Shown in pieces: positions 48,302-58,140 of a stretch of 64,000 bases of DNA. The notes under the pieces were generated by a model, which was not told where the DNA came from, did not search any database, and was given only the letters and a program-made list of their open reading frames with translations. Position 1 is the stretch's first letter, and the number at the start of each line of letters is the position of its first letter. Source of the stretch: Cardiobacteriaceae bacterium TAE3-ERU3 (GTDB taxonomy: Bacteria > Pseudomonadota > Gammaproteobacteria > Cardiobacteriales > Cardiobacteriaceae); contig JAHUUI010000002.1 in assembly GCA_019218315.1 (NCBI GenBank), positions 124,001 to 188,000 of the forward strand. Direction: 5' to 3'. Both the position numbers and the translations under genes were made by a program.

Positions 48302-50302
48302 TCATTGAATAAACGCCATTTCCTGTAGCTGGCGAATTTCATCACGCAGCGCAGCGGCTTGTTCGAACTCAAGATTTTGCGCGTGCTGGAGCATATCTTT
48401 TTCCAGCTGCTTGATACGCTTGTCTGCTTCGGCCGGTGTCAGCATAGCGTTTGCCCCACCCTGCTTTTCTTTGTGCGCTTTTTTCGCTTTGACAGCAACG
48501 TGTGCACCTTCCATCACATCATTGACTTTTTTGCGGATGGTTGCCGGGGTAATCCCACGCTCAAGGTTATAGGCAATCTGCTTTTCACGACGGCGTGCGG
48601 TTTCATCCATTGCTTTCTGCATCGATTTGGTGATTTTATCCGCGTAGAGAATTGCTTTACCATTGACGTTACGCGCAGCACGGCCAATAGTCTGGATCAG
48701 AGCCCGTTCACCGCGCAGGAAGCCTTCTTTATCGGCATCAAAAATAGCGACCAATGATACTTCCGGCATATCGAGCCCTTCGCGCAGCAGGTTAATGCCG
48801 ACCAACACATCGAACTCACCCAAGCGCAAGTCACGAATAATTTCCATACGCTCGACGGTATTGATGTCCGAGTGGATATAGCGTACGCGTACGCCGTGTT
48901 CCATTAGGTAATCGGTAAGGTCTTCGGACATTTTCTTGGTCAGCGTGGTAATCAGTACCCGTTCATCTTTTGCTGCGCGCAGATGAATTTCGCCAAGCAC
49001 GTCCTCAACCTGTCGCCCAACCGGCCGAATTTCTACTTCAGGATCGAGCAAGCCAGTTGGGCGCACCACTTGCTCGACAATTTGCCCCGACTGCTCGACT
49101 TCAAAATCCCCCGGTGTGGCGGAAATATAAATCGTCTGCGGTGCAATGGCTTCAAATTCCTCGAATTGCAACGGACGGTTATCCAGTGCGGACGGCAAAC
49201 GGAAACCGTAATCGACCAGTGTTTCCTTGCGCGAGCGGTCACCGCGATACATACCGTTGATTTGCGGCACGGTGACGTGGCTCTCGTCGAGCATCAGAAT
49301 GGTATCTGGCGGCAAGTAGTCGTGCAGGGTTGGTGGTGGCTCGCCCGGTGCGCGGCCTGATAAATAACGTGAGTAGTTCTCGATACCCGAGCAATAGCCG
49401 AGTTCAAGCATCATTTCGAGGTCGAACTGGGTGCGTTGTTGTAGGCGCTGTGCCTCGACCAGTTTATTTTGTGCATTGAGTGCCGCCAAGCGTTCACGCA
49501 GTTCATCTTTAATCGACTCCGCTGCTTCAACGATTGTGCCGCGTGGTGTCGCATAGTGCGTTTTCGGATAAATCGTCACGCGTGGAATCGGATCAAGCAA
49601 CTCGCCAGTCAGCGGATCAAAATAGCGGATAGATTCAACTTCGTCGTCAAATAATTCAACCCGCAGCGCATACCAGTCTGATTCAGCGGGCATGATGTCA
49701 ATCACGTCCCCGCGTACGCGGAATGTACCACGTAGCAGCTGATGATCGTTGCGTGTGTATTGCAATTCCGCGAGTCGGGCAAGCATTGCCCGCTGGTCAA
49801 TTTTCGTGCCGCGATTAATGTGCAGCACCATCTTCATATACAGCTTAGGGTCTCCGAGACCATAAATCGACGATACACTGGCGACGATAATCGTGTCGCG
49901 GCGTTCGAGAATGGCTTTGGTTGCTGAGAGGCGCATCTGCTCGATGTGCTCGTTAATTGAGGCATCTTTCTCGATGAAGGTATCGGATGCCGGCACATAC
50001 GCTTCCGGTTGGTAATAATCATAGTAGGAAACGAAGTATTCCACTGCGTTATGCGGGAAAAATTCACGCATTTCACCATAAAGCTGCGCCGCAAGCGTTT
50101 TGTTTGGCGCCATAATCAGCGCCGGACGTTGCGCTCGTGCGATGATGTTTGCCATGGTGTAGGTTTTCCCTGAGCCAGTCACTCCAAGCAAGGTTTGCTT
50201 GGCTAGCCCGTCCTCCAGACCTTCCAGCAAACTCTCTATCGCCTTCGGCTGATCACCTGACGGCTGATAATCTGACACCAGCTCAAAACGTCCTTCACTC
50301 AT
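48302..50302 (-). CDS. uvrB: Excinuclease ABC subunit B
   Basis: Damage-verification helicase of nucleotide excision repair. It has 666 residues from ATG 50302, which has AAGGTG six bases upstream (GTG 50311 is the frame start). Seen: Walker [13 protein letters not shown], the beta-hairpin [21 protein letters not shown], motif [11 protein letters not shown], motif [18 protein letters not shown], motif [11 protein letters not shown] and the C-terminal UvrC-binding helix pair [15 protein letters not shown]. Confidence 0.98.
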
Positions 50303-50375
50303 CGCATTCACCTTATTGCACTCACGTACCCGATATTGGGGCGGGTGCTATCATTATCAAGTACGAAGTACCGGA

Positions 50376-54640: not shown

Positions 54641-55098
54641 CCTATCTCGTCGTCAAATCCCTGCACATCATTTCCGCCAGCGTGCTGGTCGGTACCGGCT
54701 TTGGCTCGGCGTTTTATTTGTTCTGGATTAACCGTAGCGGTAGCGTGCCCACGCAGGCAATGGTTGCCAAATGGGTCGTCAAAGCCGATTTGTGGCTGAC
54801 CACACCGGCGGGGATTTTCCAGCCACTATCCGGCTTATGGCTAATGCACCTTGCCGGTTGGCGTTGGGACAGCACATGGTTGCTTGCCACATTCGCGCTT
54901 TACGCCTTTGCCGGACTGTGTTGGCTGCCGGTGCTGTGGCTACAAGTGCGGATGCGCGACCTTGCCACAGACGCCAGCGCGCACAATACCCCGCTACCCT
55001 CCAATTACCGCCTTTACCAACGCTATTGGGAATGGCTCGGCTATCCGGCATTTATTGCGATGATTGTGGTCTATTTTCTGATGGTGACAAAGCCATAG
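54634..55098 (+). CDS. DUF2269 integral membrane protein
   Basis: A 154-residue protein with four hydrophobic segments. The N-terminal VVKSLHIISASVLVGTGFGSAFYLFW and middle TTPAGIFQPLSGLWLM fit DUF2269. ATG 54634 overlaps the previous stop; a longer frame from 54214 runs through the two preceding genes and is not real. Its last 47 bases overlap the end of the convergent MFS gene. Confidence 0.87.
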   Translation: MNTYLVVKSLHIISASVLVGTGFGSAFYLFWINRSGSVPTQAMVAKWVVKADLWLTTPAGIFQPLSGLWLMHLAGWRWDSTWLLATFALYAFAGLCWLPVLWLQVRMRDLATDASAHNTPLPSNYRLYQRYWEWLGYPAFIAMIVVYFLMVTKP

Positions 55099-56248
55099 CG
55101 ACCAACCAAACCAGTAAACCACAGCCCGCCAATGCCGCACCGACATAGCCGATCGACGGAAAACCGAATCCGGCATCAATCGCCAGACCGGCAAGAAAAG
55201 GACCAAGCGCATTAGCCATATTGAATGCACTGTGATTGAGTGCCGCGGCCATGGTTTGTGCTTCACCAGCAACATCCATCAGGCGCACTTGCAGCGCTGT
55301 ACCAAAACCGCCGCCAATGCCAATCATCAGCACCCACAACGCAACCAGCCACGCATTGGCACTGATCAGAGGAAAACTCGCCAGCCAGCAGATGCTCCAA
55401 ATCAGCACACCGGTCACACTTTTCGGTACGCTTTTGTCGGCAAAATAGCCAAGAATCAGATTGCCCAGCGTCATACCAATACCCATACAGCAGAACACCA
55501 GCGGCAAGTATTCTGCGTCCAGCCCGCTAACCGTTTCGAGCAGCGACGCAAGATAGGTATATACCGCGAACATACCGCCAAAGCCAATCGCCCCGCAGGC
55601 AAGCGTCAGCCAAATATGGATATTTTTTAGCGCACCGAGTTCATGCCGTGCCTCGCTACGCGCTTGGCGGTACGTTGACGGCACACTGGTCAACAAGCCA
55701 ATCATCGCCAAAAATGCAACCAACGCCGCCACGCCAAGGCATACCCGCCAATTCAATGCCTGCCCCAGCCAATTAGTCAGTGGCGCACCAATCACCGTGG
55801 CAATCGTCAAACCCATCATCACTCGCGCCACAGCCTTGCCACGGTTTGCCTTGCCCATCAGCCCGCCAGCAAACAACGCACCGATACCGAGAAATGCGCC
55901 ATGCGGCAAACCGGACAGAAAACGCAGTACCAACAAACTTTGATAACTACCGGCAAACAGACAGCCAACATGGGTGAGGACAAAAACGCACAGCATCACA
56001 ACCAGCGCCCTGCGCCGCGCCCAGTTAGACGCACACAACGCCAACACCGGTGCACCGAACACCACACCAAGCGCATAGGCACTGATCAAATGTCCGGCTG
56101 TCGGCTCGTCGATATTGAAATCATTGGCAATTTGCGGCAAAAGCGTCATCGTCGCAAACTCGGTCACGCCGATGGCAAATGCACCGAGCGCCAAAAATAA
56201 AATCACCCATGATGGGTGACGAATCGTAGCGGGTGAAGCAGCGTTCAA
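55052..56248 (-). CDS. MFS transporter, DHA1 family (AraJ/NepI-like)
   Basis: A transporter of about 398 residues with twelve hydrophobic segments. Seen: FAIGVTEFATMTLLPQIANDF in TM1, GVVFGAPVLAL, the DHA1 motif FLSGLPHGAFLGIGALFAGGL and VIGAPLTNWLGQALNWR (motif C antiporter signature). No ATG is available near the N-terminus. TTG 56248 has GGAG six bases upstream and is taken; TTG 56278 is the outer limit. It likely exports sugars or drugs. Convergent with the DUF2269 gene. Confidence 0.88.
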   Translation of the reverse strand: MNAASPATIRHPSWVILFLALGAFAIGVTEFATMTLLPQIANDFNIDEPTAGHLISAYALGVVFGAPVLALCASNWARRRALVVMLCVFVLTHVGCLFAGSYQSLLVLRFLSGLPHGAFLGIGALFAGGLMGKANRGKAVARVMMGLTIATVIGAPLTNWLGQALNWRVCLGVAALVAFLAMIGLLTSVPSTYRQARSEARHELGALKNIHIWLTLACGAIGFGGMFAVYTYLASLLETVSGLDAEYLPLVFCCMGIGMTLGNLILGYFADKSVPKSVTGVLIWSICWLASFPLISANAWLVALWVLMIGIGGGFGTALQVRLMDVAGEAQTMAAALNHSAFNMANALGPFLAGLAIDAGFGFPSIGYVGAALAGCGLLVWLVAMALSPSENRPQSSQ

Positions 56249-56321
56249 TCTGTTCTCCGAATTCTGCAAAGCAGGCAATTCTACCGCGCGAATGTTACCA
56301 ATAAAAGTCTTGCACAGAAAT

Positions 56322-56407
56322 TATGGATAGCTGTGTGGATAACATTTGGATAACTTTCTGACGCTATGATTGAGCTTAAATTTTCACCACTGCTCAAAAT
56401 TTGAGCA
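56322..56407. repeat. DnaA-box-containing repeat, copy 1
   Basis: Three spaced 9-mers TATGGATAG (56322), TGTGGATAA (56334, exact complement of the DnaA box TTATCCACA) and TTTGGATAA (56345), followed by the palindrome TGCTCAAAATTTGAGCA (56391-56407). The whole block recurs 169 bases downstream. Nothing coding overlaps it. Confidence 0.75.
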
Positions 56408-56490
56408 GCTATCAAATTTCCTTTTACAAAGGCTTAAAAATCATTTTTTGCGGTAAAAAACTGCCGACAAACTGCACTTTCCACTACAGC
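56408..56490. other. AT-rich spacer between the two DnaA-box repeats
   Basis: 83 bases with runs such as CAAATTTCCTTTTAC and AAAAATCATTTTTTGCGGTAAAAAA. It could serve as an easily melted stretch if the repeats bind DnaA. No ORF. Confidence 0.4.
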
Positions 56491-56576
56491 TATGGATAGT
56501 TGTGTGGATAACCTTTGGATAACTGCCTGAAGCCATGATTACACTAATTTTTTCATTACTGCTCAAAAGTTGAGCA
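56491..56576. repeat. DnaA-box-containing repeat, copy 2
   Basis: TATGGATAG (56491), TGTGGATAA (56503), TTTGGATAA (56514) at the same spacings as copy 1, then the palindrome TGCTCAAAAGTTGAGCA (56560-56576). The parts between the 9-mers and palindrome have diverged more than the motifs, as expected if the motifs are under selection. Confidence 0.75.
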
Positions 56577-56790
56577 ATAAAATATCGCAAAAGCTTAGTT
56601 CCCACGGGAGTGCTCTGATGTAGTTTATATTTTCATAATAAACAGTTGTGCATCCATTTCTAGGGTCGCCAACATACAAGTTAATTCCAAAAAAACAGCC
56701 ACAGGGTAACCAAAAAGAATAATCGCTTATTTTTATGTGCGTGACTGTTTTTTCTGGGGCTCTCTATAACAGAGCGGACAAACACTCTGT
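56577..56790. other. Intergenic region after pmbA
   Basis: 214 bases, no gene. A short ACAGAG / CTCTGT hairpin (about 56770-56792) lies at the pmbA end without a T run. I see nothing else. Confidence 0.4.
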
Positions 56791-58140
56791 CTACTGCGCA
56801 ACAGTCATACTGTCGAGCAAGATACTCGGTGCGTGGATTCTGCCGTTATGGTCAATGTCGTCGCCGATGGCGCGGACGTTACCCAACATATCACGCAGGT
56901 TGGCTGCTATGGTGATGCCTTCAACTGCATGGGCAATTTTACCGTTTTCAATCCACAACCCACTTGCGCCACGCGAGTAATCTCCGGTGAGCTGGTTGAC
57001 ACCCTGCCCCATCAGGCTGGTAATAAGCACACCACGCTCAATGCCAGCAATCAGTTCGGGGAAACTGCGGACGTTGTCACCCTCGGCAAGCAAACGTACG
57101 TTACGCGCTCCGCCGCCATTCCCGGTTGGTGGCAAATTAAGACGGCGTGCGCTGTACAGCGAGAGCAGGTAGCGTGCGATACGCCCGTCTTCAATGATGG
57201 CACTGTTCGCTGCGGGTAAGCCGTCGCTATCACACGGACTACTGCTCATCGCTCGCGGCAAATACGGCTGTTCGTCAATGCTTAACCATTCGGGCAAAAC
57301 TTGTTCACCAAGCGCTTGATGCAGATAACTCAAGCCGCGATATTGCGCACGGCCGCCAAGTGCGCCGAGCAAATGCCCAATCAGCGAGGCTGCTACGTCA
57401 TGACGGAACAAAACAGGATAACTGCCGCTGCTAATACTTTGCGGATCAAGCGCAGCGATAGCGCGTTCAGCAGCGCGTTTGCCAATACTACTTGCATCTT
57501 CAAGGTCAGTGGCATGGCGTGCGCTGGCGTGTGCGTAATCGCTTTGCTGGCCGTTGTCGTTACCGGCAATGACGCTGACCGATACACCACAACGGCTGCC
57601 GCGATGATCAAGGCTGAAACCATTACTGGTCAGGTAAACGGTTTGCGCAATACTGTGCCCCGCCGATGCGCCGTTGCTGTTGACGATGCGCGCGTCTTCC
57701 CGCGCAGCGGCTTCGCAAGTGGCTGCGTGTTCGCACAAGATGTCGCTGTGCCACTGCTCAAGCTGCGGGTCGTAGCGCTCAAGGGCGGCGAGTTCGTCAT
57801 CACTGATAGTGGCGTATTGTTCACATTCGGGCAGGCGCAGGTCGGGATCAGCTTCTGTGTAGTGTGCAATGTCGAGTGCGGCACTGACCGCCGCGGCAAT
57901 CGCTTGCGGACTGCGGTCGCTGATGTGTATCGAGCCTTCGCTACCGTTACGCATCACACTCAGCGAGAGATTGAGGTCGCGTTCGCGAGTCAGGGTTTCA
58001 AGTTTACCGTCGCGCCAATCGACTTCAAGGCCGCTGCTTTCGCTGATGACGACTTTAGCTTCATCTGCACCACCTGAGCGTGCTTGCTCAAGGGCGTAAG
58101 CGGCGCTGTCGTAGAGTGCTTGGGTGTCGGTGAGTTTCAT
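56791..58140 (-). CDS. pmbA: Metalloprotease accessory subunit PmbA (TldE)
   Basis: Partner of TldD in the heterodimeric TldD/TldE protease, which degrades unfolded peptides and matures some peptide antibiotics. It has 449 residues, the same as E. coli PmbA (450). Seen: VDWRDGKLETLTRERDLNLSLSVM, GSYPVLFRHDVAASLIGHLLGALGG and the C-terminal GVNQLTGDYSRGASGLWIENGKIAHAVEGITIAANL. There is no HExxxH, as expected for the inactive subunit. The start overlaps the tldD stop (ATGA). Confidence 0.96.
   Translation of the reverse strand: MKLTDTQALYDSAAYALEQARSGGADEAKVVISESSGLEVDWRDGKLETLTRERDLNLSLSVMRNGSEGSIHISDRSPQAIAAAVSAALDIAHYTEADPDLRLPECEQYATISDDELAALERYDPQLEQWHSDILCEHAATCEAAAREDARIVNSNGASAGHSIAQTVYLTSNGFSLDHRGSRCGVSVSVIAGNDNGQQSDYAHASARHATDLEDASSIGKRAAERAIAALDPQSISSGSYPVLFRHDVAASLIGHLLGALGGRAQYRGLSYLHQALGEQVLPEWLSIDEQPYLPRAMSSSPCDSDGLPAANSAIIEDGRIARYLLSLYSARRLNLPPTGNGGGARNVRLLAEGDNVRSFPELIAGIERGVLITSLMGQGVNQLTGDYSRGASGLWIENGKIAHAVEGITIAANLRDMLGNVRAIGDDIDHNGRIHAPSILLDSMTVAQ

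Follow-up and report, generated by a model that had tools for sequence, protein, structure and literature searches.

A probable tandem pair of DARS-type DnaA regulatory sites with predicted Fis sites in a Cardiobacteriaceae genome

The locus and its two modules

The window, the whole 64,000-nucleotide stretch that was analysed, is G000:C2:124001-188000 of a 2.41-Mb genome, and the locus lies at C2:180.3 kb between a gene for an MFS transporter and pmbA, both on the minus strand. One direct-repeat family is present, with two copies of 86 nt at 56322-56407 and 56491-56576 that share 83% identity at a spacing of 169. Each carries three 9-mers in the same direction, TATGGATAG (56322 and 56491), TGTGGATAA (56334 and 56503) and TTTGGATAA (56345 and 56514), at steps of 12 then 11. 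TGTGGATAA is an exact DnaA box on the minus strand, one per copy. The triplets are followed by the palindromes TGCTCAA-AAT-TTGAGCA (56391-56407) and TGCTCAA-AAG-TTGAGCA (56560-56576). Copies 1 and 2 differ at 0 of 27 DnaA-box letters, at 1 of 17 palindrome positions and at 14 of the remaining 42, and the GC content of 56408-56490 is 36% as against 48% for the whole window. An earlier note on this DNA had described twin 86-base repeats with this period, 9-mer triplets in steps of 11-12 bases with an exact DnaA box in the middle, a TGCTCAA(N)TTGAGCA palindrome after each triplet, motifs kept while the intervening sequence drifts and an AT-rich stretch between the copies; this description is borne out in full.

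The box pair TGTGGATAACNTTTGGATAAC, with up to three mismatches allowed, matches the genome only at these two places. In rankings over 2.31 Mb of the genome the window copies are the best two triple boxes and hold ranks 2 and 3 among double boxes. The repeat pair therefore exceeds chance expectation. A perfect double DnaA box, TGTGGATAActtTGTGGATAA, occurs at C1:403683-403703, possibly inside a coding region and with no Fis site.

Overlooked in the earlier note is an inverted and diverged 9-mer resembling a DnaA box, which precedes each triplet by 5 bp and falls outside the 86-bp repeat. With it, each module reads as an inverted box I followed at 5 bp by box II, at 3 bp more by box III and at 2 bp more by an extra box, with a palindromic, predicted Fis site beyond. 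Box I is 84 bp from the Fis-consensus site in both copies. The features are as follows.

48302..50311, minus strand: uvrB, 6 kb from the locus; the congener G001 has a module directly upstream of its uvrB
55052..56278, minus strand: flanking MFS transporter gene (PF07690, E=8.6e-44), context only
56308..56316, plus strand: copy 1 box I, TCTTGCACA, 8/9 to TTWTNCACA, inverted with respect to the triplet, separated by 5 bp from the box that follows and lining up with the TTATCCACA box I of relatives
56322..56330, minus strand: copy 1 box II, TATGGATAG on the plus strand, 7/9 to the box consensus
56334..56342, minus strand: copy 1 box III, TGTGGATAA on the plus strand, exact DnaA box
56345..56353, minus strand: copy 1 extra box, TTTGGATAA on the plus strand, 2 bp from box III
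56392..56406, no strand: copy 1 Fis-consensus site, GCTCAAAATTTGAGC, fitting GNNYANNNNNTRNNC and the strict AT-rich form, inside the palindrome 56391-56407
56408..56476, no strand: AT-rich linker between the modules (36% GC over 56408-56490)
56477..56485, plus strand: copy 2 box I, CTTTCCACT, 7/9 to TTWTNCACA, inverted and 5 bp from the next box
56491..56499, minus strand: copy 2 box II, TATGGATAG on the plus strand, the same 9-mer as in copy 1
56503..56511, minus strand: copy 2 box III, TGTGGATAA on the plus strand, exact DnaA box
56514..56522, minus strand: copy 2 extra box, TTTGGATAA on the plus strand, third 9-mer of the triplet
56561..56575, no strand: copy 2 Fis-consensus site, GCTCAAAAGTTGAGC, fitting GNNYANNNNNTRNNC, inside the palindrome 56560-56576
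56791..58140, minus strand: flanking pmbA (PF19289, E=8.6e-64), context only

Downstream of the modules there is an inverted repeat, AAAAAACAGCCAC/GTGACTGTTTTTT, at 56690-56702 and 56741-56753.

Comparison with DARS1 and DARS2, and rarity of the core

In the literature consulted, DARS sites are known from E. coli and its relatives. Their core consists of an inverted box I, box II and box III (PMC8682772, PMC4245941, PMC4585315), and the head-to-head boxes I and II are the defining feature (PMC8682772). The DARS1 and DARS2 stretches served as the E. coli side of the comparison. The DARS1 core reads TTATCCACT-attcc-TGTGGATAA-cca-TGTGTATTA, the DARS2 core TTATTCACC-ttttc-TGTGGATAG-agt-TGTGAAGAA. 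Head-to-head boxes I and II and a box III at the DARS spacings of 5 and 3 bp are present in the window, boxes I and II being degenerate here, and the cores lie in the intergenic interval 56279-56790.

The locus resembles DARS1 in its intergenic core, with box I inverted 5 bp ahead of box II and box III 3 bp beyond. It differs in comprising two tandem modules, and in its fourth box, its weaker boxes I and II and its Fis consensus, which is 84 bp away from box I. E. coli DARS1 sits between bioD and uvrB. A likeness in position is seen in the congener G001, where the module is upstream of uvrB, and in a core-only match at uvrB in G003; the window locus, 6 kb from uvrB, has the opposite orientation relative to that gene. 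With DARS2, from the rppH-mutH intergenic region, the locus shares the core geometry, Fis sites in cis and more than one core-like group of boxes. Both window palindromes match the Fis consensus GNNYANNNNNTRNNC, giving predicted sites at 56392-56406 and 56561-56575 that lie much closer to the core than in DARS2. The window locus differs further in that mutH is not beside the module and in that the IHF consensus WATCAANNNNTTR has no match on either strand of 56200-56800, leaving no counterpart there of the DARS2 IHF sites IBS1-2. Genes for IHF alpha and, at C3:124.8 kb, a small Fis homologue are present in the genome.

The core geometry was scanned with 273 spacer combinations over 2.31 Mb of the genome, allowing up to four mismatches; script scans took in contigs C1-C6 and left out C7-C11 (about 105 kb). 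The spacer pair (5,3) tops the 273 combinations with five matches. Four matches are reached by other pairs such as (17,2), in part through the elements already counted. A Fis consensus lies 72-84 bp from box I in 4/5 of the (5,3) cores, namely both window copies, C2:499438 and C6:124142. Sixty first-order Markov genomes gave a mean of 0.28 (5,3) matches and a maximum of 3; matches accompanied by a Fis site occurred in 0/60. The earlier note held that many similar clusters genome-wide would speak against its proposal; what is seen is four cores with Fis sites at three loci. The cores at C2:499438 (L157) and C6:124142 (L168) are single and of DARS type with Fis sites, and their neighbours, named by eye from open reading frames, are tadA/gcvP-like and ampD/cysK-like, respectively.

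Conservation in relatives and chromosomal position

Twelve Cardiobacteriaceae modules align across boxes I, II and III and the palindrome (alignment A2), and MAFFT, unprompted, put the box I columns of the window on the clear boxes of the relatives. The 12 modules fall into two classes by the distance from box I to the Fis site, 72-73 bp and 83-84 bp, which differ by 11 bp, about one helical turn. Read by eye, 11 of the 12 palindromes fit GNNYANNNNNTRNNC, G007b being off at one position; several of these relatives were found with model R1, whose training included the palindrome, and for them the palindrome is only partly independent evidence. The explicit inverted pair TTATCCACA-5 bp-TGTGGATAA is present with at most one mismatch in G001, G004, G018 and G020.

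A small Fis orthologue and a full module occur together in G000, G001, G004, G006 and G007. No small Fis orthologue was seen in G002, G003, G005 and G008, where the module matches are core-only or ambiguous. Such co-occurrence, in nine genomes that are related to each other and some of them incomplete, lends support to Fis coupling, though not proof. In none of 14 cores outside Cardiobacteriaceae is there a Fis site at this spacing. The result rules out Fis coupling as a feature of gammaproteobacteria in general, and it also weighs against reading the window locus as a Fis-coupled DARS.

Modules also come in pairs in G006 (193 bp apart) and in G007 and G010 (209/210 bp). Core pairs 227-260 bp apart, with no Fis site, are found in another family of the order (L131, L134 and L137, in G016, G012 and G017, respectively), and a typA-like gene is near the tandem cores in G012 and G017. 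Integer helical phasing between tandem copies was considered as a rule and dropped, as the periods of 169, 193, 209-210, 227 and 260 do not all fit it.

The neighbours of the module differ among relatives and include uvrB/dinB, pgm/gloA, rnt/guaB and others, several of them named by eye. The earlier note held that absence of the repeats from the same place in sister strains would speak against its proposal. G001, the only congener available, has the module, not beside pmbA but between dinB and uvrB, about 90 bp upstream of the latter. The core-only match of G003 is at the uvrB start (E=3e-4). Linkage to uvrB as a general rule was rejected, being seen in G001, G003 and E. coli but not in most relatives, and since the listed matches of most other relatives are not near that gene the link to DARS1 through uvrB is suggestive only. 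A DNA search with the whole locus against 57 relatives returned nothing but the locus itself because the spacer drifts. An exact-pattern scan of public genomes gave 46 stretches, of which only L042, a contig of a Cardiobacteriaceae MAG, was informative; at the locus it has the same sequence as contig C17 of G007.

The dnaA gene occupies C1:581-582 kb, close to where the cumulative GC skew is lowest (C1:591 kb). The same curve peaks at C2:87.8 kb, and C2:85.8 kb holds a dif-like 28-mer that matches at 22/28 positions and has an intact XerD arm. This dif-like site, TCTTCGTAGAATATATATTATGTTAAAT at G000:C2:85811, is 2 kb from the skew maximum. The locus is about 95 kb from both on C2, and we infer that it is copied late, at about that distance from the terminus. 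In G001 the antipode of dnaA, calculated with a rounded genome size, is about 83 kb from the module.

Searches by tblastn with E. coli Hda, SeqA and DiaA, covering 96% of the genome (contigs C1-C6), found no clear homologue of any of them. The Hda query was answered by dnaA itself only, and a DnaA-family search of the whole genome likewise returned dnaA alone. Since none of the three was found, the E. coli-type cycle that produces ADP-DnaA may be absent here. We found no paper in a literature search combining Cardiobacteri-, replication origin and DnaA.

Possible functions of the locus

What might such a locus do? We favour, as probable, the reading that two DARS-type DnaA regulatory sites stand here in tandem, each of them coupled to a Fis site; the locus is probably a site for control of replication timing rather than an origin. 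The sequence establishes how the boxes are laid out, that this layout is rare in the genome and that relatives keep it next to unrelated genes. The earlier note had listed a DnaA-reactivating sequence among its options; the layout agrees with this, the head-to-head core and the 5/3-bp gaps being those of DARS1 and DARS2, and the function would follow from E. coli. Several observations count against a DARS: 56200-56800 has no IHF consensus, whereas DARS2 needs IHF; boxes I (8/9, 7/9) and II (7/9) are weak; and Hda, SeqA and DiaA were not found in contigs C1-C6. The locus would best be described as a variant of DARS-type elements, being neither DARS2, as it has no IHF site, nor a proven DARS.

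E. coli DnaA favours paired boxes 2-3 bp apart, those of DARS1 and DARS2 included (PMC11317965). Head-to-head DnaA on boxes I and II leads to ADP release (PMC8682772), and DARS2 is activated by Fis with IHF (PMC4245941). By analogy, DnaA would bind the head-to-tail boxes with 2-3 bp gaps cooperatively, and a box-bound molecule would meet another head-to-head across the 5-bp gap. That contact would loosen ADP from DnaA, and the released protein would rebind ATP, so that nucleotide exchange might be expected at the locus. Fis nearby would couple activity to growth phase, and would presumably act at a module with no visible IHF site. A fuller scheme is put forward only tentatively: in a lineage seemingly lacking Hda, SeqA and DiaA, the tandem module might reactivate DnaA through head-to-head contacts with Fis alone, free of IHF and close to the terminus, and recharging would thereby be tied to growth phase and late replication. 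A DARS core geometry in Cardiobacteriaceae, tandem and fused to a Fis site, would imply that recharging of DnaA by non-coding DNA has a longer history and a more modular build than has been supposed, and the locus would offer a minimal natural DARS-Fis module for probing how Fis helps. With Hda apparently absent, what recharging would achieve in this genome is a question that can be tested.

The main rival is a pure titration role, in which the boxes would only bind DnaA and shrink the free pool, with no nucleotide exchange. No triple boxes in the genome score better than the window copies, paired boxes with gaps of 2-3 bp are bound well by E. coli DnaA (PMC11317965), and nucleotide switching may be of less consequence, as no Hda came up in 96% of the genome. 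We nevertheless consider a mere sink unlikely, as a conserved inverted box I, a 5-bp gap and a fixed distance to Fis would be superfluous for it, and a late-replicating position near the terminus is a poor placing for a titration site, which should double soon after initiation. Binding or titration of DnaA may still be a side effect of the locus.

That the locus serves the neighbouring MFS gene as a DnaA- and Fis-controlled promoter or operator is a weaker proposal. It does fall within the upstream region of that gene, and DnaA is known to control promoters in E. coli (PMC11317965), but the modules of relatives stand beside unrelated genes and no promoter-like sites rise above chance, and we think the proposal improbable.

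Clustered same-direction boxes in non-coding DNA also recall datA, and the earlier note had suggested a datA-like titration locus. The datA site requires IHF, with its DnaA boxes around the IHF site. No IHF consensus was found in 56200-56800, and the head-to-head core and box layout belong to DARS (PMC8682772); membership of the datA class is unsupported, and a site that stimulates ATP hydrolysis on DnaA is very improbable here.

A chromosomal or secondary replication origin, another option of the earlier note and one suggested by the DnaA-box cluster and AT-rich stretch, has a negligible chance of being correct and is ruled out because dnaA and the skew minimum lie on another contig, C1, and only about 95 kb separates the locus from the terminus as marked by the skew maximum and dif-like site.

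The DARS-type pair can also be set beside an evident oriC. In the relative G005 a large array of exact DnaA boxes at 11-bp steps, on both strands, lies between dnaA and dnaN (C12:47704-47801, L059). The window locus shares 11-bp steps between DnaA boxes with this array and differs in lying far from dnaA.
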